DNA of 64,000 nucleotides from Ursus arctos (taxonomy: Eukaryota; Chordata; Mammalia; Carnivora; Ursidae), in assembly GCF_023065955.2 (NCBI RefSeq), contig NW_026623008.1:21138001-21202000 (forward strand), written 5' to 3'. Numbering within the stretch: position 1 is the stretch's first letter; each line of letters opens with the position of its first letter. The notes beneath the pieces are model-generated. The model was not told where the DNA came from. It saw only the letters and a list, made by a program, of their open reading frames with translations, and ran no database searches. The position numbers and the translations under genes are program-made. Below are positions 4,067-58,100 of this stretch, in pieces.

Positions 4067-4109
4067 ACATGGCTGGATTCTGCCAAAGAAATAAAAAAGC
4101 AGGTTCGTG
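4067..4109 (+). CDS. EPB41: EPB41 exon 6 (FERM, end of F1 lobe)
   Basis: A 43-nt exon encoding TWLDSAKEIKKQVR plus the first base of the next glycine codon. It is the end of the F1 (ubiquitin-like) lobe of the FERM membrane-binding domain and leads into the F1-F2 linker. The acceptor is TTTTTACAG and the donor is GTG|GTAAGT, close to consensus. It starts in phase 0 and ends in phase 1, and the next exon completes GGT. The peptide is identical to 4.1R as I recall it. There is no start codon: the exon is internal, and the preceding FERM exons lie left of the window. The exon number is inferred by counting back from exons 9 and 11. Confidence 0.96.
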
Positions 4110-11066: not shown

Positions 11067-11207
<141 letters not shown>

Positions 11208-13516: not shown

Positions 13517-13735
13517 ATATTATTTATGCCTTCAGCTTCGGCAGGACATAGTGGCAGGACGTCTGCCCTGCTCTTTTGCAACCTTAGCATTATTAGGTTC
13601 GTACACCATCCAGTCTGAGCTGGGTGACTATGACCCAGAACTTCACGGTGCCGATTATGTTAGTGATTTTAAACTGGCCCCAAATCAGACAAAGGAACTT
13701 GAAGAGAAGGTCATGGAACTGCATAAGTCATACAG
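13517..13735 (+). CDS. EPB41: EPB41 exon 8 (FERM, F2 lobe)
   Basis: A 219-nt exon that begins by completing arginine and continues [20 protein letters not shown]; it ends at HKSY plus two bases of arginine. It forms most of the helical F2 lobe. In published mapping of 4.1R, exon 8 carries the glycophorin C binding site. The acceptor is TGGCCATAG and the donor ACAG|GTAAAT; phase is 2 in and 2 out. One difference from the human protein as I remember it is HGADY for HGVDY, a conservative surface change. The exon is complete and shows no frameshift. Confidence 0.97.
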
Positions 13736-21337: not shown

Positions 21338-21425
21338 GTCCATGACTCCAGCTCAAGCTGACCTGGAATTTCTTGAGAATGCCAAAAAGTTGTCTATGTA
21401 TGGTGTTGACCTTCATAAAGCCAAG
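21338..21425 (+). CDS. EPB41: EPB41 exon 9 (FERM, calmodulin site)
   Basis: An 88-nt exon encoding (R)[18 protein letters not shown] and then [11 protein letters not shown]. It covers the F2-F3 junction. The peptide [15 protein letters not shown] is the Ca2+-dependent calmodulin-binding sequence reported for 4.1R, and the serine after AKKL corresponds to Ser185 of the 80-kDa form, which confers Ca2+ dependence; it is present here. The acceptor is CTACCAAAG|GTCC, with only a modest pyrimidine tract. The donor is AAG|GTAACG. It starts in phase 2 and ends in phase 0. Confidence 0.97.
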
Positions 21426-24719: not shown

Positions 24720-24872
24720 GACTTGGAAGGAGTGGATATTATCCTAGGTGTCTGCTCTAGTGGCCTTCTGGTTTATAAAGATAAGCTGAGAATTAATCGC
24801 TTTCCTTGGCCCAAAGTGCTGAAGATTTCTTACAAACGTAGCAGCTTTTTCATCAAGATCCGTCCTGGAGAG
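24720..24872 (+). CDS. EPB41: EPB41 exon 10 (FERM, F3 lobe, p55 site)
   Basis: A 153-nt exon of exactly 51 codons, phase 0 to phase 0, from [20 protein letters not shown] to [11 protein letters not shown]. It forms the first strands of the F3 (PH/PTB-like) lobe, including the [20 protein letters not shown] stretch shared by FERM proteins. Published work places p55/MPP1 binding in exon 10. The acceptor is CTTTTTCAG and the donor GAGAG|GTACAG. The sequence matches 4.1R with no changes that I can see. Because it is in phase at both ends, skipping it would keep the frame but remove the core of F3. Confidence 0.97.
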
Positions 24873-26823: not shown

Positions 26824-26921
26824 CAAGAACAATATGAGAGTACCATTGGATTCAAACTTCCCAGTTACCGAGCAGCTAAGAAGTTATGGAAAGTCTGTGT
26901 TGAGCATCACACTTTTTTCAG
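26824..26921 (+). CDS. EPB41: EPB41 exon 11 (FERM, F3 lobe, calmodulin site)
   Basis: A 98-nt exon encoding [20 protein letters not shown] and then [13 protein letters not shown] (last codon split). It completes the F3 lobe; [11 protein letters not shown] is the C-terminal F3 helix. [17 protein letters not shown] is the reported Ca2+-independent calmodulin-binding peptide of 4.1R and is intact. The acceptor is GTTTTTATAG and the donor TTCAG|GTATTG. Phase is 0 in and 2 out. A longer open stretch that overlaps this exon in another frame (from 26765) is a shadow, not coding. Confidence 0.97.
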
Positions 26922-29274: not shown

Positions 29275-29447
29275 ACTGACATCTACAGACACCCTTCCTA
29301 AAAGCAAATTTCTTGCACTGGGATCCAAATTTCGATACAGTGGCCGGACTCAGGCACAGACCAGACAAGCTAGTGCTCTGATTGACAGGCCTGCCCCACA
29401 CTTCGAGCGTACAGCAAGCAAACGGGCATCCCGGAGCCTGGATGGAG
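29275..29447 (+). CDS. EPB41: EPB41 exon 12 (FERM-adjacent region)
   Basis: A 173-nt exon encoding (R)[20 protein letters not shown] through [10 protein letters not shown] plus one base. This is the FERM-adjacent (FA) region, rich in Ser, Arg and Lys, found in a subset of FERM proteins and often phosphorylated. The two serines reported as PKC targets in 80-kDa 4.1R (Ser312 in FRYSGR and Ser331 in SKRASR) both fall in motifs present here. The acceptor is a C-rich TTTTTCCCCCCTAG. The donor GAG|GTTTGT is a weaker match. Phase is 2 in and 1 out. Confidence 0.97.
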
Positions 29448-39359: not shown

Positions 39360-39529
39360 CAGCGGCTGTTGATGCAGACCGAAGTCCTCGGCCCACCTCT
39401 GCACCAGCCATTGCTCAGAGTGAGGACACAGAGGTTTCTAAAGCACAGGAGGAAACTGTGAAGGTTGAAGAGCAAAAGGAAGAAGTGCCACCTGAGCAAG
39501 CTGAGCCAGAGCCCACAGAAGCGTGGAAG
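39360..39529 (+). CDS. EPB41: EPB41 exon 13 (acidic 16-kDa region)
   Basis: A 170-nt exon that completes a GCA codon and encodes AAAVDADRSPRPTSAPAIAQ, then a Glu/Lys/Val-rich stretch ending EPTEAWK. It belongs to the variable 16-kDa linker between FERM-FA and the spectrin-actin-binding domain. The acceptor sequence TAGCAG is a tandem NAGNAG, and use of the first AG gives the three alanines of known 4.1R. The donor is AAG|GTAAGT. Phase is 1 in and 0 out. Compared with the human protein as I remember it, the middle is shorter by roughly a dozen residues (SEDTEVSKAQ here) and VDADR lacks a serine; it is the least conserved exon in the window. Confidence 0.95.
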
Positions 39530-40877
39530 GTAAGTCCAAATATCTGGCCTGGTCACTTTCTGGTTGTTTTTTTTTTTTTTTTTAATTTTTTATTTATATT
39601 CAATTAGCGCTTTCTGATTTAGACGTGTTAACTCCTTAGCCAGGAAGGTTTTCAAAGCATTGAGTCTTGTCGAATTCTAACAATATTATTTCTTCTTTAC
39701 TCTTTCTAAAAGAAAGTATTCTCCGTGAACCTATAAAGATATTTTCATAGAATTATGTCATGAAGACTAAACCATCCAAGAAGTTTTCAGGTGACCTACC
39801 TACACTGTTACCTAACTTATATCTTAAAAAAAAAAAAAAAAAAAAAAAAAGAGCCGGTAAAGCACATCAGCACTGTGATCATCTGCTTGTGATCATCTGC
39901 TTTTGAAAATGATTTTTACTCATCCAGAAGGAATCTCCACATTCCTTTTTAAGAGTAAGCTCTGCTAATAGAATTAAAATACAATTTGATTTCCTAAGAT
40001 GAGTAAACATGCAGCATACCCAGAGAATATCCCGGTTAGTGTTACATAAAGCACATCTATGTGGTTGTTCAAATTGTTTACAAAAAGGTGAAGATCCTTA
40101 TGTAGGAGCGATTATGCCACTGAATTGCTTATAGTTCTGAGTTGATTGTACCCACAGTCCACTGGCCTTGTCGAAAAATCACCAATTAGATTTCCCAGGA
40201 CTAACAGTAGCTGGACTGATCTTTTATGTGTTGATAAGCTTTTTAAACACATTTAAGTAGTGATGGGGTTGAGATGTTCACATTTACCGACATAAATACA
40301 AGTATCACTATTGGCAACAGAAATTAATAGAGGCAGTTTTTAAAAGAAAAATTACATATGTCTGTTAAGAAATTTAAAACCAAAAAAAATTTTTTAAGCC
40401 ATGTAAGACCTTAGTAAGTGCTCTCATCTTGGCAGATGGATTAATCCTGTTCTTTTGGACCCAGTTCAGTATCCAGTTTATCTGTAGAGCAGTGGCCAAT
40501 TTGGCTTTGTTTTGACTGTATTTAAAAAAAAAAACCCAAAACTATTCAACACGACATGCTGTTTTTACTGTCCTTTGGGACCATCTTGAGTCCAAAGAGG
40601 AAAAAAAAATTGAGCAAATGGTGGATATTTGCCTTTTTTTTTTTTTTTTTTTTTACCTAGCCAGATGTGTATGACATTGGCCATAATGTTCAGTATCAAC
40701 AGTGCCTGTTTAAGGTTAGACTACCCCAGTTTTTAATGTTAGGATATCTCATCTGGCACTTTTGACTATTCCTCCATTTGTTGTACTAACCGGAAAGTGT
40801 TGGATTACTGGAATTGGCAAAGGAATCTTTTTGAGAGGCTAACATTCCTTTAGTGTCCTGCTAACATACTTGTTCTT

Positions 40878-41067
40878 TTTTTTTTTTTTTTTAAGATTTT
40901 ATGTATTTATTTGAGAGAGAGAGCACAAGCAGGGGGAATGGCAGACAGAGGGAGAAGCAGACTCCTCACTGAGCAGGGAGCCCAACGCGGGGCTCGATCC
41001 CAGGATCATGGGATCATGACCTGAGCCGAAGGCAGATGCTTAACTGACTGAGCCACCCAGGTGCCCC
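40878..41067 (-). repeat. CAN-SINE
   Basis: Antisense copy; duplication CATACTTGTTCTT / CATGCTTGTTCTT at 40865-40877 and 41068-41080. Confidence 0.95.
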
Positions 41068-41689
41068 CATGCTTGTTCTTTAGCCTATAAGTCAGACACA
41101 GGTATCTTCAAGAATAGGTTCCCATTGCTCTTGGGACCTTCACAGAGGGGAGAGATCACTTCCTGGTATATGCTTCCCATTTAAGTGCCAGTAGGTGGTT
41201 TTCTTGCTGATTAATTCTGTGTACGTATATGTTTTGAGATACTTGTGTAGAGATCAGACCGAAAACCACCTCTGATGACCTTCTATTACTGTACTAGTAG
41301 TGACAGAATTAAGGGTGACTCTGAGTTGATTTTATTTATGGCAATAGAAAATAATTGTGGAATTTACCTGAAGCCATAATTATTATATAAAGCAATAGTA
41401 GTAACAAAATAACCTTGTAACACTATATAAATTTCATCACCTAACACGAATTTGGTGCCAGATAGAGGGTAGCTTTTTGCATCTTGAGTCATTTGACAAG
41501 ACCGATTTTGCAGGTGTAGAATCGTATCTTGCCCCTATGTACACCTTTATCTCATTTAATATTCTCTGAAGGGGCATGACTGACTACCTTTGCTACTTGG
41601 CCTCCACTCTTAGACTGAAGTAGAGGCTCTCAATTTCTTGCTGTTAGAAAAAAGCAAAAGGTTGTTATTCACTGAAACAAGTAATTTAA

Positions 41690-41870
41690 GCTTTACAAAA
41701 TAATTTAAAACTACCATTGGCTAAACATTCACAACTCTGTGGATATATTATCTCCACTTTATCAATAAAAGACTTAAACTCAGAGAGGTGAAATAACTTG
41801 CTAATGACCACACAGCAGATACAATGGGATTCATAGTAGAAATGACCCAAATTGTCAGTTATCCTGGTAG
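41690..41870 (-). repeat. MIR-like fragment
   Basis: CTCAGAGAGGTGAAATAACT and TGACCACACAGCAGATACA. Confidence 0.7.
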
Positions 41871-42999
41871 TTAAAAGTACCGTAGCTGGATGTGCTTATG
41901 ATTTGACAGTATCACAAAGTTTGGTGTTATGTTTTCTACCTTCTGTCCTGGGGAAGATAGCACAGTGACATGTACTCCAAGGTAATGCTGCCAAGTGTGA
42001 TTAAAAAGAATGTGTCAAAACCACAGATTGGTGAGGCTCTACAAAGAAGTTAATGATACAAAATGATTGATTTGATCCTTAATAAAACGTTTTATAATTT
42101 TGAAATACCTACAGCTTTAGGCATTGCTCACTCTAGAATGCTTCCTCTTAATAGTCTGTCTGGGTTTCTTAAATTTATACTTATGCCATTTTGGGTGTAT
42201 AAAATGACTCTTACTAAAGGAATTTCAAAGCTAGGTAGGAGGCCTTGGTTATTCTCTTCCTACTATTAAGGATGAATCTTGTTCATCCACCAAACACATG
42301 GGCCCCAGCTCCCTGGAGAGGAGATTACAGAGTGCTGAATGTTGCCGCTGAGCCCTGTGTATGCTTATTCATAAATCGGCCTGGGAAGTAATTGCATGCA
42401 TCAGTAACAATTTGGATTGAGTTTATTTTGATGTTGTCTAATAAACTCAAGGGTGAAACTGCCTCCTTAAATATATTGATCAACTAACCATTTTTTTTTT
42501 GTATTTACCCGCCTTGTGTCATATGTGGTTTATTATATATGTGCTTTGCCTGTAAAGATTTTCTTTTTGTTTTTTTTGTCATGTATGTCCTACCTTGATA
42601 TCTTCATTCGTAAATTTGTTTTTAAATGTTAAAGTACTTTTAGATCATAAAAAAAAGCCAAAACCAAAACACATGACTTATTTAAGCCCAAATTATTTTT
42701 TGTATAAGTATTTTTTTGTCAATGAGTGTAAAAATGTTTTCTTCATCGATAATTATCTTAATTTTCTTTTGTGATCATTCGGCTGTCCATATTACCTCTT
42801 CAGCCTTGAACATATGATGGTGAACTAACAGATGACCGTGGAGAGTAATGTCCTTTCCTGTCACACCCCCATCAGACTGCACCCTGTTGATCAGCTTAGT
42901 TTGCAACCAGCTTAAAGATGCGGCTTATTTGGAAATAATGCTACTCATAGAAACCTACTAACCTAAAATGTTTCTTACCACTTTATTTTTTAAATGTAG

Positions 43000-43056
43000 G
43001 TGGAAAAAACCCACATCGAGGTCACAGTACCCACCTCAAATGGTGACCAAACTCAG
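43000..43056 (+). CDS. EPB41: EPB41 exon 14 (alternative cassette)
   Basis: A 57-nt exon of 19 codons, VEKTHIEVTVPTSNGDQTQ, phase 0 at both ends. It is one of the small cassettes just before exon 16 that are known to be spliced alternatively between tissues; skipping keeps the frame. The acceptor is TTTTTTAAATGTAG and the donor CAG|GTTTGT, a weak 5' splice site that fits regulated use. The next intron is very short (172 nt). The peptide matches 4.1R exactly as I recall it. Confidence 0.96.
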
Positions 43057-43228
43057 GTTTGTGCCAACCGGCCACTTGTTCCTCTTCTCCTCCCTCCTCA
43101 ATTTTTTTCTTCTCCCCAACTCCCTTCCCTTAAAAAATATTACAAAATAAAGGTTCAAACAAACTTCAATGAGCCAATATTTTATCATTTTTCTTTTTTT
43201 TCTTTTTTTTTAAATAATGGCAAAACAG

Positions 43229-43270
43229 AAGCTTGCAGAAAAAACTGAAGATCTGATAAGAATGAGGAAG
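43229..43270 (+). CDS. EPB41: EPB41 exon 15 (alternative cassette)
   Basis: A 42-nt exon, KLAEKTEDLIRMRK, phase 0 at both ends and known as an alternative cassette in 4.1R. Its basic end, joined to the KKRER start of exon 16, gives a run RKKKRER that resembles the nuclear-localisation motif described for 4.1R. The acceptor lies after a long T-run (TTTTTTTTAAATAATGGCAAAACAG) with an A-rich gap. The donor is AAG|GTCAGC. Confidence 0.96.
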
Positions 43271-44248
43271 GTCAGCCATTTTTCACTTTCACAAAACTAC
43301 ATTACCGCCACCCATGCTGACTTCTGCAGTGCATTAAAAAGACAGTGATCCATTCTTTTCATTGATTTCTCTTCATCAGAAATTACTTTCAAATCGCAGA
43401 TATATATCTGCGCGTATATATATTTGCATACCCTCACATACATACGTATACCGAAGAAATTATAATCCTATACTATGTGTTGACATTTTTCATTAAAAAA
43501 AACTTTCTAGGACAAAAATATCCTTTCAAACACAATGAAATAACTAGTGAAGACCAAACCTATCCTTCGTAATTAAACTTTGTGAGAAATATGTCAGTGG
43601 CACCTACTCTTGGAATCGTGGACAGTATTTGATACGTACTTAGTACGGAAACCGTCATAGCAGCAACTCCTGGTATGGTTAGTAACTGTGTGTTTTGCTG
43701 CTCTGTGCCCGTTCTTCCCAACCATAGAGTGGGATGTATCAGTTCTTACTGAAGAGAATATTGACGAATCATGTACAAAGTGCCCTTCAATCTTTCTTAC
43801 GAAAGATATTAGAGATACACATACTGTGGTATTACTAAGTATAAAGTATGTCTCAAAAAGGTGAATAATGTTTTAAAGCATTTCTCTGTGCCATGGAACA
43901 TGGAATTTCAAAGCTTCTTAAAGTCATGTATTTTAAGATAACCCTCAAACAATTCAATTTCAAAAATGAGCGTAAAGCAGCTTATTATGTAAGAAGCCAA
44001 TGAAGCCAGGAGCACTGTCTGTTTAAGTAAGGTCATCACTTTCTTCCATCGTTCATGAATAGGGTCATCCGTTTTCTAGTGGTAATGTGTTCTGTGTGTG
44101 TCCTTGTAGTTTTGTGACCATTTCATGTTGGCATATGCTGCGCTGTGGACGTTTAATTTTTTTGGTTTGCCAATTTGCAGTTTTTTCCCGCAAGAACAAC
44201 ATTTTAATTTTTTATGCTTTTCTGTTTTTCCCTCTTTCATTTTCACAG
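43271..44248 (+). other. EPB41: Intron 15
   Basis: A 978-nt non-coding intron upstream of exon 16, with no recognised interspersed repeat. The absence of transposons is notable beside the neighbouring introns and fits a region under splicing-regulatory constraint. The acceptor tract is TTTTTCCCTCTTTCATTTTCACAG. Confidence 0.8.
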
Positions 44249-44311
44249 AAAAAGAGAGAGAGACTAGATGGTGAAAACATTTATATCAGACATAGCAATT
44301 TAATGTTGGAG
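44249..44311 (+). CDS. EPB41: EPB41 exon 16 (spectrin-actin binding cassette)
   Basis: Exactly 63 nt, 21 codons, from KKRERLDGENIYIRH to NLMLE, phase 0 at both ends. It is the classic developmentally switched exon of 4.1R: late erythroid cells include it, and the peptide is required for high-affinity spectrin-actin binding. The tyrosine in ENIYIR corresponds to a reported EGFR phosphorylation site. The KKRER start contributes to nuclear targeting. The acceptor is strong. The donor GAG|GTTTGT is weak, and three TGCATG motifs follow within 140 nt, as expected for Rbfox-activated inclusion. Confidence 0.98.
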
Positions 44312-49164: not shown

Positions 49165-49341
49165 GATTTAGACAAAAGTCAAGAAGAGATTAAAAAACAT
49201 CATGCCAGCATCAGTGAGCTGAAAAAGAACTTCATGGAGTCCGTACCAGAACCACGGCCTAGTGAATGGGATAAACGCTTATCCACTCACTCCCCATTCC
49301 GAACACTTAACATCAATGGGCAGCTTCCCACAGGAGAAGGA
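49165..49341 (+). CDS. EPB41: EPB41 exon 17 (spectrin-actin binding domain core)
   Basis: A 177-nt exon of 59 codons, DLDKSQEEIKKHHASISELK through NINGQLPTGEG, phase 0 at both ends. With exon 16 it forms the 10-kDa spectrin-actin-binding domain. LKKNFMES is the reported actin-contacting motif, and the helical start (DLDKSQEEIKKHHASISEL) fits the spectrin-binding part. The acceptor is CTTTCAACTATAG and the donor GGA|GTGAGT. One difference from human as I remember it is GQLPT for GQIPT. It is the last canonical exon in the window; the usual next exon (PPLVKTQTV...) is not found before position 64000. Confidence 0.97.
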
Positions 49342-51112
49342 GTGAGTACTTTGTCCATGTGACCACTTGTGAGAATGAATGAAATAAGTGTTACTGTATA
49401 TTAATGTTATGTATATAAGTAAAATAAGTAAGTTTAGAGCTAAAATTGAGCTTTGGTTCCTCACAGGTTCATTGCAGCTTTAAGGCATTCCTAATCAAAC
49501 ACTTATTTTTTAAGTCACGTGGGCTACCCAGTCCAATTACAGGAGCCATTACTAGCTACCATTAGAAGACTAGACTCTTGAGAACTGCCTCCTTCTGGCT
49601 AGTGTGTGTTTACAAATTGACCATAAGCCAGTGGAACTTTATGTTCAAACTGTGCCTCCAAGGACCAGAGAGTTTACTAAATTTAGTAAGGTCAAAATTG
49701 GAACAGGATAAACATTTTTTAAAAACTTTATTTGAACATTTGCACAACTTAGAAATGTCTGGAATGGTTGACCACAATTATATAATAAACCAAGGAGGCC
49801 TCTAAGCCAGAGAATGCAGGACACCACCTATTAATGGTTGTGTTTCAATTTTAGAAAAATTATTGATGATTCATCTTTATAAGTAGCATCAAACTTTTAA
49901 CATGTTGTTTTAGAAGAAGTCAGAAATACCTTTCAGAGGCTGCTTTTTATGTGTTGTTGTCATGACCTGTTGTAGAAATCCTACATCTGCCTAAATGAAT
50001 CTGTGTGATGGAATATCTTAAAAGTTACCTTAAGCATATATTTAAAAATTCTTTACTTACTCTTTAGCCTATACAGGTTAATATTTATATAAGTAGTCAC
50101 AATGACTTAATGAGTGATGATAATAATTTTTAAAATTATGTGCCTGTTTTTCACTAATAGCAATAGCAATTCTAGTCAAGAAAGGTAGTGATGTCTTAAT
50201 AACTTAAAAAAAAACTTTGTTTTTATATTCAGAATTCATGGTAAACTATTCAACTTTGTTTAGTTTCTGGAACTGGAGAAGATGATAAAAGTTGACTCAC
50301 AATGGGTACTTTTTATATTTTTCAAAATGCAATTGAAATTGGCTGAGAATTCTCTAAGTAGAGTCGGATGAGTTTCACCAAGTAAGACTGGAGAATTCCT
50401 GAATGATAGTAGCTAGTTACTGGGGGTGATAGCATACAATTGTTCTTTTTCACTGTCCTCTTCAGCCTCCATTCCCCGATGTAAAAGGACATCAGTTTTG
50501 TATTCTAAATGCAGATAATGTAGCCTGAACTGGGACAGTGACTCTGCTTTCTATAAATCTAGAATTCAGGAGACAGGCCTTATTGCTATCTTGACTGGTT
50601 AACCCTCTCTGTAAACCGTAACTGCATATTTTCTAGAAGTTTTCTTTTTGACTCCATGGAAGTAATAAAAGAGGCTCAATTACTTTGAAAAAGTAACTTA
50701 ATACTCTTTTGGATGAAGTTTGGTTAATTTGAATCCATCTCCATTTCCAGAAAATCTCTTATATCTTAATAGAAACCTTCCAGAAATCATCTCAGGGCTG
50801 GTTGGAAATGGGTATGTCATTCTGTGGACTTTAAAGAAAGAACTTTTTATAAATTAGATTAGTAGGGAGTACTTGAGCCGCTTTAGCTCCATGCTTCTGT
50901 ATATTATTCCTCGAAACGAATAGCAGAATAAATAAGAAGAACTGTCCTATGCTAACCTTTTATAAAGGATAACTCCACTTTCTGGCGTATTTTACTTTTT
51001 CTTTAATAATTAGGGCAATATTTCTGTTCTCTGGGATTACCGCTTCCGTCTTTGGCAGCATTGTTGTTGCATTTCAAGGCTACTGAATTTTATATAATTT
51101 GTGTATGACCAG

Positions 51113-51163
51113 GTGAAGAAAACCTCTGTCCTTCCCTCGGAAAGAAAGGTTGGTGGGCCAGAG
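51113..51163 (+). CDS. EPB41: Candidate in-frame cassette exon after exon 17
   Basis: Fifty-one nt, 17 codons reading VKKTSVLPSERKVGGPE, phase 0 at both ends, so it could be inserted after exon 17 without breaking the frame. The donor GAG|GTAAAG is good. The acceptor GACCAG is valid, but the pyrimidine tract is weak; a branch-like TACTGAA lies about 33-40 nt upstream. The composition (Lys, Ser, Glu, Pro) fits 4.1R linker sequence. Epithelial cassettes called 17a/17b are described for EPB41, but I cannot match this one to them from memory. It could be a chance open stretch. Confidence 0.35.
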
Positions 51164-51288
51164 GTAAAGCTGCTGTTATGACTTGTGCTTCTTAATCCAA
51201 ATTTGCTCTTGTCATGGCACTAAGCAGATAATCCCCCCAGAACTGAACAGCAGCTGCTGAGTAATTTTTTTTCTTTTGGCTCTACTAG

Positions 51289-51405
51289 TTAATTCACACC
51301 CCACTGCCTTTTGACCTAACACATAACATTTCCACTGCTGCAGCTTTTGCAGCTTTCAAATTTGCTTATTTCGGCGCATGGCTGGTTGAAAAGCTGCATG
51401 AAGAT
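51289..51405 (+). CDS. Weak candidate cassette exon (39 codons)
   Basis: Follows a pyrimidine tract (TTTTTTTTCTTTTGGCTCTACTAG) and is open in the exon 17 frame for 39 codons up to a possible donor GAT|GTAAAT, or for 47 codons up to TGA at 51430-51432 if unspliced. The translation starts LIHTPLPFDLTHNIS and has an Ala/Phe/Tyr-rich hydrophobic middle. It is supported only by splice-site-like signals and phase; no family is recognised, and chance cannot be excluded. Confidence 0.15.
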
Positions 51406-51546
51406 GTAAATATGTATTCAGAGAGAAAATGAATTTAATTGTACCCTGTTCTTTTTATGTTGTCTTTCTTCTCCCTCTTTATATTCTTTTAAAAATCATT
51501 ATAATTTTGCATCCTTTCTTTTCCTTTTTTCTTTTTTGCTGACCAG

Positions 51547-51675
51547 TCCCCCAGCTACTTTCTCCCTGATACATATCACTTAGGGGTGTGCAAAGAACCT
51601 GTGTCGAAATTCCAAACTGACCAGAGAAGGCTGGCCCAACTGAGAGAACTTAGAGCCAAGTTTTTCCTTTCATAG
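51547..51675 (+). CDS. EPB41: Candidate alternative last exon A (42 codons + stop)
   Basis: A long pyrimidine tract (TTTCTTTTCCTTTTTTCTTTT) and CTGACCAG precede an open frame that continues exon 17 in phase 0: SPSYFLPDTYHLGVCKEPVS, then a Gln/Arg/Leu-rich segment (QRRLAQLRELRAKF) ending FLS and TAG at 51673-51675. The last part is helix-prone and basic. An AATAAA lies at 52090-52095, giving a 3' UTR of about 430 nt. Spliced to exon 17 it would replace the C-terminal domain with 42 new residues. No family is recognised. About one in eight random 42-codon windows would be open, so the support rests on the combination of signals. Confidence 0.35.
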   Translation, partial: SPSYFLPDTYHLGVCKEPVSKFQTDQRRLAQLRELRAKFFLS

Positions 51676-52089
51676 ATAACATCTGTCTTGACTAGATGGC
51701 AGAGCATAGAAATTGTCGGGGGAGAAAAACTCAATTGGACAATTGGAAAAGACAACTTACCTTAAAAGTGTCAAAAGTTCTTGCTTAATGTGATATATAA
51801 ATCTTCATGATGGTTGTTATTACTATTATTTTTAATCATGATTCTGCAAGAGGGGGAGGGAGTTTATAGTTGTTGAGATTTGTGGGGGGTTTTTTGTTTG
51901 TTTTTGGTAGACCTTGGAGGCACGTAGAAACTTTTATACTTTTGTTTTTCTTTTGCGATCTTTCAAATGTATGGGATTAAGATTTTTATTCCCTTGAGCA
52001 AAAGCTAATTGCCATACTGAATGAGCAGTTTTTTAAGTCTATATGAAGGGATATGAGGATAACTTTTTATATTCTGCCATTCTATTTGT

Positions 52090-52095
52090 AATAAA
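52090..52095 (+). promoter_or_regulatory. Polyadenylation signal AATAAA for candidate last exon A
   Basis: AATAAA lies 415 nt after the TAG of the candidate last exon at 51547. The downstream GU-rich element is weak. Confidence 0.35.
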
Positions 52096-52490
52096 AGTAA
52101 CTTTTCCAATGGCGAGAAGAATGCTTCATTATTGGCTTTGCCCAAGTGATCTAAGAAAAATTGGCAGCACTAAAACAATGACAAATGACCCAAAACTCAT
52201 CTGTGAGTATCCTTGAAGGAGGAACAAATACTACAACTAAGGAAGTCAAGTAATTGCTTGAACTCTCAGGACTTCTAATGTTCATTCATTCAAAAAATTA
52301 CCTATTGAATACGCTACTGTGTTATAGAAACTTTGCTGGGATAAATTGCCAAAGTAAGGTGAAATAAAGAGTGGCCCCAAAGATCTTCCCAAAGCCTTTG
52401 CACATCCCCAAGTATCATTTTTGAGCATTTTTCCATCTGTCATTTTGTTCATCTTTCTCTGTCTTTCTTGATCTTCTACCGTGAAAGCAG

Positions 52491-52742
52491 ACACAGGAAC
52501 GTGCTCTGTTAGTGCAGGATGAAGAGAAAATTAAAAGGCAAGAGAGATCTACTGAGAGAGCCTTGCCCCAGCAAGACAATGAAGAAATTCTTCCCAAGGT
52601 TTCTATTCCAATCCCTGAGGATCACAAGTCTCTCAAAAAGTGCCGCCTCTACTCTAGTACTTTTCCATCTCCTCGTATTCCTTTCATGATGTCTTTTCTT
52701 GTGATTCTTGCGTTGGCTGTTTGGTGGTTGGTCTTTCTGTGA
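52491..52742 (+). CDS. EPB41: Candidate alternative last exon B: tail-anchored 4.1R C-terminus
   Basis: Eighty-three codons plus TGA, open in phase 0 from an acceptor with a clear pyrimidine tract (TTTCTCTGTCTTTCTTGATC ... GAAAGCAG). Residues 1-30 are charged and Gln-rich (EEKIKRQERSTERALPQQDN). Residues 31-62 hold an acidic/proline stretch and a basic patch (KSLKKCRLY). Residues 66-83, MMSFLVILALAVWWLVFL, are fully hydrophobic and end at the stop: a typical tail-anchor layout with essentially no lumenal tail. An AATAAA at 52886 and a GT-rich element follow. Joined to exon 17, the product would keep FERM and spectrin-actin binding, lose the usual C-terminal domain and insert into a membrane. 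FRMD3 and FRMD5, other FERM proteins, also carry a C-terminal hydrophobic segment. A second in-frame AG (ACACAG, 6 nt downstream) could also be used. Confidence 0.6.
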   Translation, partial: TQERALLVQDEEKIKRQERSTERALPQQDNEEILPKVSIPIPEDHKSLKKCRLYSSTFPSPRIPFMMSFLVILALAVWWLVFL

Positions 52743-52885
52743 TCGGGAACAGGGTGCTCATCTGAAATGTCAAGACTAAAACCATTGAACTTTTGTCATT
52801 TACTTCTGTGTTATCTCCTGTATGATACCCTCTGATCTTGATAGTTCACTGTCCTAGGGAAGCTCTTTGTGATCATTTTTCTGTC

Positions 52886-52922
52886 AATAAAGTGTTACTC
52901 TTTGTAGAGTGTGTATTGTGGG
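52886..52922 (+). promoter_or_regulatory. Polyadenylation signal and GU-rich element for last exon B
   Basis: AATAAA at 52886-52891 is followed after about 15-25 nt by the GT-rich GAGTGTGTATTGTGGGG, the classical arrangement for cleavage and polyadenylation. The implied 3' UTR is about 150-170 nt. Confidence 0.6.
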
Positions 52923-55092
52923 GTCCAAAGGAGTAGCAATGGATTGCCCAAGCCAGCTTTCCTCGCTGACGTTGAACAAGTTCAGACAAATCAGATTTAA
53001 GCATACGACAGTTGGTATTTTCCCCAAGAGGTTTAACTCTTATCCTGCATGTTTGTATTGTTCACTGCTGTTGTGTCCTCCTCTCCAGTGTTACACGCAA
53101 AGCAGGATACTCTGTAGAAATATTTGATGGAATATTTCCTAATCTTCTATAGTCATTTGTGTGGCATGGGCTCTGTAGTTTAAGAAAAAAAAATTCAACT
53201 TGGTAATTTTTCAAAAGCCTTAAAATGATACGTTTGAATCTATGAATCCATAACCACTCCTTTTCTTGAGATATCAAACCAGTGTATACAAAGGCCTTTT
53301 TTGGAAAAGGGCTTTTGACTTCTGTGGCCTTCTTATGTGTATTTCTGAAATGTACACGGAAAAACACCTTTATCCTGCCTGGTGTATAGGAGGGATCTGC
53401 AAAGGTTAAATGCCAACTTTTCACAAGTAGAATGTTGATGGTTTGAGGAAAATGGTGCTGGTGCCCCTTAGCCTCCAGCCAGGGCTGAATTTCCAGACCA
53501 CTGTACCCATCTTTAAAAGTCCTAGAATACAGGTTTATTTAAGATCTGTACATAAATATACCCTTCTCTGAATTAATACTGTTACTTCTTTATGACTTAA
53601 GTAATTATATTGCTAGAAGCAATGTTTAGCCATTATCACAAGCTTAATATATATATTGATATATTCTGTTTTCCTGGTAGACTTCAGACCTGTTTATTCT
53701 TACATTTGTGTTGAAATTAATTGTTTTTAATTGATGGCCTTGTGAGCTAAGGTTCTGTCGTGACAAGTATATGTCCCTCTGTTTGCATGTTGATTTTTAA
53801 GGCTTCCCTGAAGTAAATGCGAGTGTGCTCTGTCTTCACAACACAACTCCGACGCCTAACCTGTGGTTTTTTACCTCAGTATTAATGACATCTTGCATGT
53901 AGCTTACTTTTTATGGCACTTGAATGTACCAATATGGATGATTTGGTTAATGTTGTCTCAAATATTTGTTTTGAAATCGGAGTTCACGGGGTTATCAAAC
54001 TGAGATTTTTGCACTTTGTTTTACTTCTCAATGCTTTTTAGTTGATGAAACTTCTAAACAAGACTTTTTGTTTTTTAAATGATGGCTTCTTACAGGAAAA
54101 AAAAAAAAAGAGGGAGAGAGAGAGAGCAAGAACACTAATGCCAAGAATCTTTTGTCCTTCAACACCCACCACGATTCTATTTTCTCTGGAGACATGTAGA
54201 AGTAATTCTCTGGTATTTCCTGAAAACTGCTCTTCTGTCATCTTAGGCTTTCCCAAAAAATGGGAAAAGAAGTAAGGGGCGGGTTGAATTTTAAAATCTG
54301 TTATGGGTGTTATCTTTCATGTCACAGGCTATGTCTGTTTATAACACATATTTTGTAACTAAGCCTATTTCTTGGTTCACTCATAATTAGGAAAGAGAGA
54401 CTTCAGTCAGCCTGACACATTGCAAAGCTGTCCTCTGACACAGAAAGTGATCATCAGAAGTACTCCCCTTTATCTTTGAAATAGAAATGTAGGAGCTTTC
54501 CATATGAAATAACAAAACTATATTGGTTAGAGTCTTTTAAAATTTTTTCAGGGAACCGAAAAGGAAATAATCAGGATTTTATTGATACTTTTATAACTGT
54601 TTACGATTATATTTCCAGTTTTCATCCTGGTACACAGCTTTTTATTAATTGTTATTATAAACTTCACCTTGGATTTGTTTCCCTTTGTGTTAGAGTTATT
54701 CCAAGTCCCTTAAAAGTCTAGCATAAGCCAATGATATTTTTCATTTTTTTGAAGTGCAGCAGGAATCCTCAGAGATCCTTATTGATAGTTAACGGAGAGG
54801 CCCTTTCTTTGATTAATAGGTAAGAATGGTTGAGAGGAGAAGGGCCAAGCCTTTGTATTGGATTAAGCTGGTCAGTGCAGGTTCAAAGATATACCCATCA
54901 CAGTTGTCAGAGGAAAAATAGTAGACATTACAGCTTTGTATTAACTAACATTAATACTGCTGAGATTTGTAACAAAGCTGTAAATAGTCTTAGTTTCCTT
55001 CTCATTTCTCATTCCGTTCTGAATGCCAGAGACAGAGCCAAATCACTGTGTATTGGTTTTATCCTGGTTCAGCTTCTTAATGGCTGGTTGAT

Positions 55093-55096
<4 letters not shown>

Positions 55097-55131
<35 letters not shown>
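55097..55131 (+). repeat. Run of 35 A
   Basis: An uninterrupted A-run without a recognisable SINE or L1 upstream; ATTGGATTAA (about 54858) and ATTGGACTAA (55131) might be a decayed duplication of a short retroinsert. Confidence 0.9.
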
Positions 55132-55134
<3 letters not shown>

Positions 55135-58100
55135 GACTAAAGGTATCAATACAGACCAGTAAAAAGTCTTGGGTTTATATTGCCTTGGTTTTTGCTATTA
55201 ATCATTTCCAGGGTGACTCTGAGAAGTTCACTTAATTACTTGGTGCCCAGATTTCCACCTAGTAACATAGAGACAAACCTACCTCATGAGAATGAATCTG
55301 TAACGTGTTGGTTGTTGTTCATTTCTTGGTCTTTTGGGGACTGGGAAGATGAAAACTTAAAAACAGACATTAATTTCTTGGAATTTTTCATATGAAAGCA
55401 AGCAGTGAAATAGTTGTGTTGATTTCCATCTGCTTCTTACTGGTATTTGACCAAGCACTTAAAACTACTGAAGGTAGAAATGTCTTTCCAAAGTCATCAT
55501 ACTCTTAAGCAATTCATCTTATCCTTATGGTATTCTTACAGTGGCCCAAACTTGAAAATAAACCCAGCATCAATCCTTTAACCATTTTCTTATGCTGACA
55601 CTTAGAATATGAAGGCGATTCAGTTCACATGGATCCAGTTTTACAACTTGTTTACGTCTCTGATAAAACTTGTGAAGGGAGAAGATGCTGACTCTGTTGA
55701 CAAATATTAGATTGGGGATTTTCTGTGGATTAGATTTCCAGTCATCCTAGATCCTAGTACATTTCTTTCTAGTAAATGTTGTAAATTTTTTCTCTGAATT
55801 TTCTGTGGATATAAGCCAATTTACTGTCTCCTACATTCCTAAGTTACTTTTGTAATATTTCCTACAGATAAGCATGGAGAATACACCAGGCATAAGAGGT
55901 TTGCTTATTTTTTAGAAGGCATTAGCAAGCAAAATTTATACTTGGGCTTTACCTAGTGATCACGTATTTACAAAAGGAAGACAAAATTAAAAAATAGTAT
56001 GAGACACTTTCGCATTGTTGCTGGCTTTTTATTCCCCCAAAAGTATTGAGTATAGTAGAGATATATAGAATTTCTCTACAGTTTCCTTCCCTTGTATTCT
56101 TCACAGAAATTGTTAAATCCCAAACTTCTTTACAGCGTTCTGTACCACACTGAGAAAAAAATGTCGCTTGTTTTCATTGCACTCAAACTAACCCTGTTGT
56201 TTGTAATTTTGGTACTAGAAATGGAGAAGAGTCCTTGTTCTATTCTCCATTATGCATGGCATGTGGGATAACTGTATCGGCCTCCTCCGCATTATAGTGG
56301 ATAGTGGATCAATGAGTCTGCTCTCATTTCTGTTTCTGTTACCCCTCATGCCTTAGGATCTCCTTCTTTACTGAAGCAGAGCATGATACAAACATTGGTG
56401 TGGACCTGGGATTGGGCACCAGAAACGGTTAAGAAGGTATGACTGTTAGAGTGAGGAAGCCATGTAAGGTTAGACCAGAAGGCGATCAGAGGTGGCTGTG
56501 ACAAACAATTACAAATTCGTAGAGTATTTCACTTCATAAATGAAATTCTTATCATACTAGAACTTGAAAGACAAAAAGAAGTAGTTTGTTACTCCCACAG
56601 ATCAGAAATACAGGCTAAAAGCTAAATAACTTCAGTCATTGCCTAACTAAATGTGTGGGTGACAGGTCGTTGAGGAAGTGTATGCTTTAGGAATGCTTTT
56701 CTAATCTTTTGTGATTGATGTCCTAGAGGGTAGCGTTCCCCTTTATGATAGTAAGAATCCTGTTTGCAGTAAATAATAAAATAAATCTAACATTTCAAAG
56801 ATTAGAGGGCAGGAGAAGCATGGATCCCAACTATCTCTTCAGGTACCCCCCCCCCCAGTCATTAAAGGGTGCAGTTTAGTCTCTCATTTTCTCCTCTACT
56901 GTCTCCTTAAAGAAGAGTCTTCATATGTACAGGATCCTGTCTCAATAAAACACAGAGACTAAGAATTAAGGGGAAACCATGGTTACTGCTATGCATTTAC
57001 TCATTGCCCACTAGGGCAATGTATTGCAGAGTTCAGAGAGGCAGCGTTATCAGAATTTTAGGTTTGGATAAGCCCCTAATCCAACTCTTCTCCACTCCAA
57101 CGCTTGACTCTTCTGTACAATATCATTTAGTGATTTAAAACCATTTATAGACTAAGTGGTCTCTAGCCTCCCAAGATATAGCACACTACATCTTTGGACA
57201 TCTCTGATTTTTGCATATAAATCATTCTTATATTAACTCAAAATCTGTTTCCCTATAGATTTCAATTCTTGGTCCTGATTGGAGGCCTTCTGAAGAATTT
57301 CCTATCTTCCATATTATAAGCTCTTCACATAATTAACTATAACTCCCATGTTGGAATTAGTCATAGCTCTTGCCCTCAGATAACTTACCATCTGATGTCC
57401 AGATCTGCCCCAGTCTTCGCCCCAGCATGTTATCCTCTTTCTTCTTTCTTTTTCTAGCTGTCCTTATTTTATCAGCTCTTTTTCTCTTTGGCTCCGTTGC
57501 CCATGGGTTGCTTGCCAATGGTTTATTCATCTTATGTTCTTACCCGTTGACTTGCCCTCTCTCTTAAAAAGAACATCTTGAAATTCCTGGAAATCCTCAA
57601 GCTTCTTCATAGATGACACAGGCACGTGGGATTTTTTTTTTTTTTTTTTTTTTTAGATGAAAGAGTGGAGGTGGGATAGTTCTGTAGCTTGGGGAACTTC
57701 TTGTAGCCCAGAATCTGTTGACAAGACAGAATCGCTATTCTATTTTGAAGAAGCATACCGCCACAGCCTGCATTCTAAGTTTGCTTGCCTTCTCTGACTG
57801 ACTAATCTTTACATACTTTAGCACCCACGTGATTTAATTTATATCATTGTGATATGATAAACTTATGGAAACTTACTTCCTGTTTAACATTCTGGTTATG
57901 GCTTAGATCCCCACCAGAAAAAGTGGTATTAAAAATTTGAAATGTTGTTAGTCCATCTCTTTTAGCTTGTACCTGTCTCCTCAAAACTGTGAGATTCTCA
58001 AAGGTGAGAGGCTTTGTTTTATTCATCTTTGTTTGCCAGTCCGTCACCTTTGTATCCCAGATATGTAACAAATAATTGAAATTTGTTAAATTGGATTGAA

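Follow-up and report, generated by a model that had tools for sequence, protein, structure and literature searches.

In the 64,000-nucleotide stretch of Ursus arctos DNA analysed here (the window), positions 52491-52742 are likely to represent a composite terminal exon of EPB41, the use of its polyadenylation signal leading to a 4.1R without the C-terminal domain (CTD) and tail-anchored in the ER or the nuclear envelope, and the use of an internal donor leading to a soluble form that carries the start of the exon as a cassette. The exon has an open frame and its own processing signals, and the tail that it encodes is conserved and closes annotated isoforms of many amniotes. The product is probably a deeply conserved, tail-anchored isoform of 4.1R, a protein otherwise regarded as a model peripheral component of the membrane skeleton. 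The features of the locus are the following, in window positions.

4067-4109, 11131-11206, 13517-13735, 21338-21425 and 24720-24872, plus strand: EPB41 exons for FERM, FA and SAB, bounded by AG and GT
26824-26921, 29275-29447, 39360-39529, 44249-44311 and 49165-49341, plus strand: EPB41 exons for FERM, FA and SAB, continued, bounded by AG and GT
49165-49341, plus strand: exon 17, upstream partner of the tail exon, phase 0, donor GTGAGT
51113-51163, plus strand: in-frame exon of 51 nucleotides, VKKTSVLPSERKVGGPE, with AG before and GTAAAG after; in its short version the exon stops at 51148
52491-52742, plus strand: coding part of the tail exon, 83 codons and TGA; main acceptor at 52491, with equivalents of 52488 and 52518 in relatives
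52491-52598, plus strand: internal cassette part of 36 codons, spliced into CTD-bearing forms (P0109-P0120)
52599-52604, plus strand: weak internal 5′ splice site AAG/GTTTCT, log-odds 1.38
52657-52662, plus strand: second internal donor GTACTT, used by black-bear isoform P0126, log-odds -0.12
52683-52739, plus strand: predicted transmembrane helix FMMSFLVILALAVWWLVFL, tail residues 65-83, up to the stop
52886-52891, plus strand: polyadenylation signal AATAAA of the tail exon
about 52903-52923, plus strand: GT-rich downstream element, from sequence reading

When the ten upstream exons and the tail are joined, a chain without internal stop is obtained. Its first 283 residues do not differ from those of giant panda (P0018) or black bear (P0126) and show one mismatch in mink, one in meerkat, and two in dog, as is expected of bear DNA. 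The last of the ten is exon 17, numbered after the human 4.1R protein. No convincing match to the CTD exons of relatives is found within the 64-kb window, so these exons should be located outside it. Also, two alternative exons on the SAB side, VEKTHIEVTVPTSNGDQTQ and QKLAEKTEDLIRMR, are seen at 43000-43267, in the interval from 39529 to 44249; one of them, VEKTHIEVTVPTSNGDQTQ, agrees with the peptide of exon 14 in a camelid red-cell paper (PMC9926112).

The tail exon translates into 83 residues from 52491 to 52739, with TGA next, within a stop-to-stop frame of 85 codons (52485-52742). The original prediction described a frame in phase with exon 17, a pyrimidine tract with AG, AATAAA followed by a GT-rich element, and a hydrophobic segment running up to the stop, and all of these are borne out: the joined chain stays open after the phase 0 exon, the AG lies at 52489-52490 behind a pyrimidine-rich tract, the 3′ signals are in place, and the hydrophobic segment comprises 19 residues.

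To compare relatives, matches from three tail searches were pooled: the window tail as scoring region with E up to 1 (128 proteins, 120 of them among the matches listed), a turtle tail with E up to 10 (111 matches out of 119 candidates), and a Peromyscus tail (78 matches out of 84 candidates). The pool contains 126 distinct "protein 4.1" proteins, all of them computed, automatic models that include redundant isoforms, a single duck supplying 10 of the 112 tail forms. These 112 proteins, in which the tail is the protein end, belong to placental mammals, birds, turtles, lizards, and a snake; a hand count of the names gives 26 species of placental mammals, as against 61 birds, turtles, and squamates. 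In 13 others, the protein ends with the CTD, 12 of them reached through the 52599 donor and one (P0126) through that at 52657. A bird-like protein, P0106, a 336-residue open reading frame on a contig of 2,254 bases, carries the tail and reads past the usual stop, which could reflect a different genetic code applied in the prediction, an error, or a real change.

The annotated relatives amend the splicing route first proposed. Direct joining of exon 17 to the tail occurs in one tail form only, the owl isoform P0122, and is not the usual route, because the 51-nucleotide exon, sometimes five codons shorter, intervenes in 111 of the 112. In the window, this exon encodes a peptide with 100 percent identity to that of giant panda; the goat CTD form P0116 skips it too. 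As judged from protein junctions (P0084 by hand), the acceptor equivalent to 52491 is used in 77 tail forms, 52518 in 25, and 52488 in 10. An alternative acceptor at 52497, also suggested originally, was seen in none of the annotated relatives compared and was discarded.

Moreover, the same set shows the two kinds of product expected from a composite exon, the tail form in 112 of the 126 proteins and the cassette form in 12, together with an acceptor, an internal donor, and a polyadenylation signal in the DNA. The cassette forms (P0109-P0120) match the tail through ...ILPK and then continue into the CTD or a 17B-like sequence. The donor at 52599 reaches a log-odds of 1.38, as compared with 3.24-12.46 for 12 other annotated donors, and this value is equalled or exceeded by 27 percent of the 3,589 GTs in the window, so that on DNA grounds the site is at chance level; its support is therefore the 12 cassette proteins and not its strength in the DNA. 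In the case of P0126 (TCTA/GTACTT), about 27 residues absent from the other proteins precede the CTD, and these probably correspond to a lineage-specific exon.

In the mechanism that we propose, the 52599 donor would be skipped and the signal at 52886 used, with a 3′ end near 52900-52920, and the readthrough mRNA would encode a 4.1R with FERM, FA, and the spectrin-actin binding region, lacking the CTD. If the donor were used instead, the first 36 codons would become the cassette of a soluble, CTD-bearing form. The domain content of the annotated proteins agrees with the predicted retention of FERM and spectrin-actin binding and the loss of the CTD: Pfam detects the FERM parts, PF08736, and PF04382 in the 112 tail forms, and PF05902 (the 4.1 C-terminal domain) in none of them, this family being found in the 13 CTD forms. 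As annotated, then, the tail form is an EPB41 product without CTD. According to PMC10887211, exon 16 is linked to high-affinity spectrin-actin binding and the CTD has NuMA and FKBP13 as partners. Since the exon-16 peptide is present in 98 of the 112, most annotated tail forms would keep the high-affinity binding, and since the CTD is absent, they should lose NuMA and FKBP13 as partners.

The tail itself is well conserved. Among the matches listed, identity to the window tail ranges from 61 to 99 percent, and the giant panda tail (A0A7N5K1E5) has 74 of 75 residues the same (98.7 percent). Tails from the 52491-type acceptor number 87, P0106 included, being 83 residues long in 76 and 82 in 11; the 51 distinct ones were aligned with the window in 52 rows, and the other 26 tails were left out. 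Over these rows, the window included, residues 1-36 have a mean identity of 0.70 to the window, residues 37-63 one of 0.84, and residues 64-83 one of 0.81, the segment exclusive to the tail form being thus more conserved than the segment shared with the cassette. Across 55 distinct last-47 segments, the invariant positions include, among others, S, P-E, K, C, L, P-F, S, W-W, and the final F-L; S68 is one of them, as are WW, F, and L close to the end. In the helix, hydrophobic residues are replaced by hydrophobic ones, with A/T at position 76, and such a pattern is to be expected if a membrane helix is under selection. The frameshifts and stops in other mammals that the original prediction had named as a refuting result did not occur in the relatives compared. 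Also, a Cys at tail residue 51 (52641-52643), which follows two lysines and could be lipidated, is invariant in 52 of 52 aligned tails.

Regarding the distribution, neither mouse nor rat is among the 78 named representatives from the rodent-tail search, where 90 percent clusters may hide them, and human is likewise missing from the names, orangutan being present (P0029 and P0030). In the matches listed, the named tail forms include no marsupial, monotreme, crocodilian, amphibian, or fish. The searches with 111 and 78 matches list only 4.1R, none of the entries being a 4.1G, 4.1N, or 4.1B tail, with a method that needs shared five-residue words. A scan of genome contigs with the tail matched no relative, and one of viral contigs gave three loci that match 19 residues at 74 percent and are regarded as fortuitous.

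This conservation bears on a different role for the exon, that of a regulatory switch in which intronic polyadenylation reduces full-length 4.1R and the tail is a degron, recognized by BAG6-type quality control, that leaves little stable protein. Switches of this kind usually consist of a weak donor adjoining a polyadenylation signal, and hydrophobic C-termini are degraded when their insertion fails. Nonetheless, the conservation of residues present only in the tail, the invariant WW, S, and Cys, the fixed stop, and the purely hydrophobic replacements exceed what a switch or a degron would need, and we consider this explanation unlikely.

The features of the C-terminus are in keeping with a tail anchor. 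The tail would comprise a linker, basic and disordered, and at the very end a hydrophobic helix of 19 residues. Among 33 distinct final 19-mers, the mean Kyte-Doolittle hydropathy is 2.31-2.72, and K, R, D, E, H, N, and Q occur in none. An AlphaFold model from the single sequence, with mean pLDDT of 65, pTM of 0.25, and no information on a membrane, places a helix at residues 65-82, with pLDDT of about 94 in the block 71-80. By prediction there is one C-terminal transmembrane segment, and hydropathy windows reveal neither an N-terminal signal nor a second segment in 111 of the 112 tail forms, where no other 19-residue window reaches at least 1.6; the exception, P0121, has such a window near an aberrant N-terminus. 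Basic residues precede the helix and no residue follows it, an arrangement that fits a tail anchor with the N-terminal bulk of the protein in the cytosol.

Hydropathy, the uncharged end, and the predicted helix point to a tail anchor of the ER or the nuclear envelope. Most likely, the helix would be inserted post-translationally as an ER anchor from which the nuclear envelope could be reached, and an internal membrane would thereby hold the FERM and spectrin-actin modules on its cytosolic side. The tail groups with ER proteins under the two-parameter targeting rules of PMC5450235, which in their leave-one-out test misplaced 14 of 43 proteins, about a third. Anchoring elsewhere, in the mitochondrial outer membrane, the Golgi, or the plasma membrane, would be compatible with the overlap of these rules, and a lipid on the invariant Cys 51 could shift the site; however, the absence of charge after the helix and its hydropathy favor the ER under the same rules, and we regard another destination as improbable. 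An ER or nuclear-envelope anchor could also be one explanation of the 4.1R that PMC10830384 reports from proteomics of the nuclear envelope and in association with emerin and lamin A.

The length of the frame is by itself of little weight. The value of 2 percent originally given for 83 open codons is right for one given frame and fails as a measure of significance, because between 49342 and 64000, 10 of 945 sense AG sites, corresponding to four distinct reading frames, and 8 of 1,063 antisense AG sites stay open for at least 83 codons. The hydrophobic end is a different matter: the two strands of the window hold 2,357 stops with 19 open codons before them, and the tail stop is the only one for which the mean Kyte-Doolittle value of those codons is at least 2.59. 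The tail exon stands beyond chance because of its conservation at the protein level, with 51 distinct full-length tails of other records aligning. The common occurrence of frames of equal length and the computed nature of every record seen would favor a chance frame or an annotation artefact, but this explanation is hardly credible and was dropped, being contradicted by a frame and stop common to those 51 tails of placental mammals, birds, turtles, and squamates and by the uniqueness of the hydrophobic end within the window. Annotation pipelines usually draw on RNA-seq.

Pfam, with E up to 10, returns no family for the 83-residue tail, the PDB a single match at chance level (E = 1), and Rfam, at gathering scores, no match in the whole window. 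The tail is not a tandem repeat, because the only such repeat in 49300-56000 is a poly-A run at 55097-55131. This run, 35 bases on the plus strand, may mark where a retroelement ends.

A transmembrane or tail-anchored 4.1R is not mentioned in the accessible parts of the literature searched, mostly for 4.1R and EPB41 (PMC10887211, PMC9926112, PMC3820963, PMC10830384, PMC6970983, PMC5450235, PMC11450717, and PMC9750877). The tail form is thus apparently uncharacterised in this literature, and an earlier description in older papers on EPB41 exons is possible. If the proposal is true, spectrin-actin modules would have a direct path to ER or nuclear membranes, which would aid the reading of reports of nuclear-envelope 4.1R; a form without CTD would escape any study that assumes the presence of this domain. 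More tentatively, an amniote-specific exon may turn peripheral 4.1R into an integral protein of the ER and inner nuclear membrane, through which spectrin and actin would have a direct link to that membrane and from which part of the nuclear-envelope 4.1R would derive, with the choice between donor and polyadenylation site setting the ratio of soluble to anchored protein.

Finally, the tail form can be placed among known systems. It has the gene and the FERM, FA, and SAB exons in common with CTD-ending 4.1R, from which it differs by a tail of 74-84 residues, a predicted transmembrane end, and the lack of CTD. The same tail is present in RefSeq and UniRef under generic names ("protein 4.1 isoform X..", for example A0A7N5K1E5), in computed records whose names are silent on a membrane anchor; because the isoform is in these databases without mention in the literature searched, what is new is the interpretation and not the sequence. 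Like the tail-anchored proteins of the ER and nuclear envelope (emerin, PTP1B, and FALDH-ER), it has a single hydrophobic segment at the extreme C-terminus and an uncharged end, whereas in 4.1R the anchor would be conditional, supplied by one exon to an otherwise peripheral protein. The layout of the exon would be that of the IgM heavy chain, where a weak donor in the terminal exon competes with a polyadenylation site to give soluble or membrane protein. The polarity, however, would be opposite, the use of the polyadenylation site in the EPB41 tail exon leading to the membrane form.
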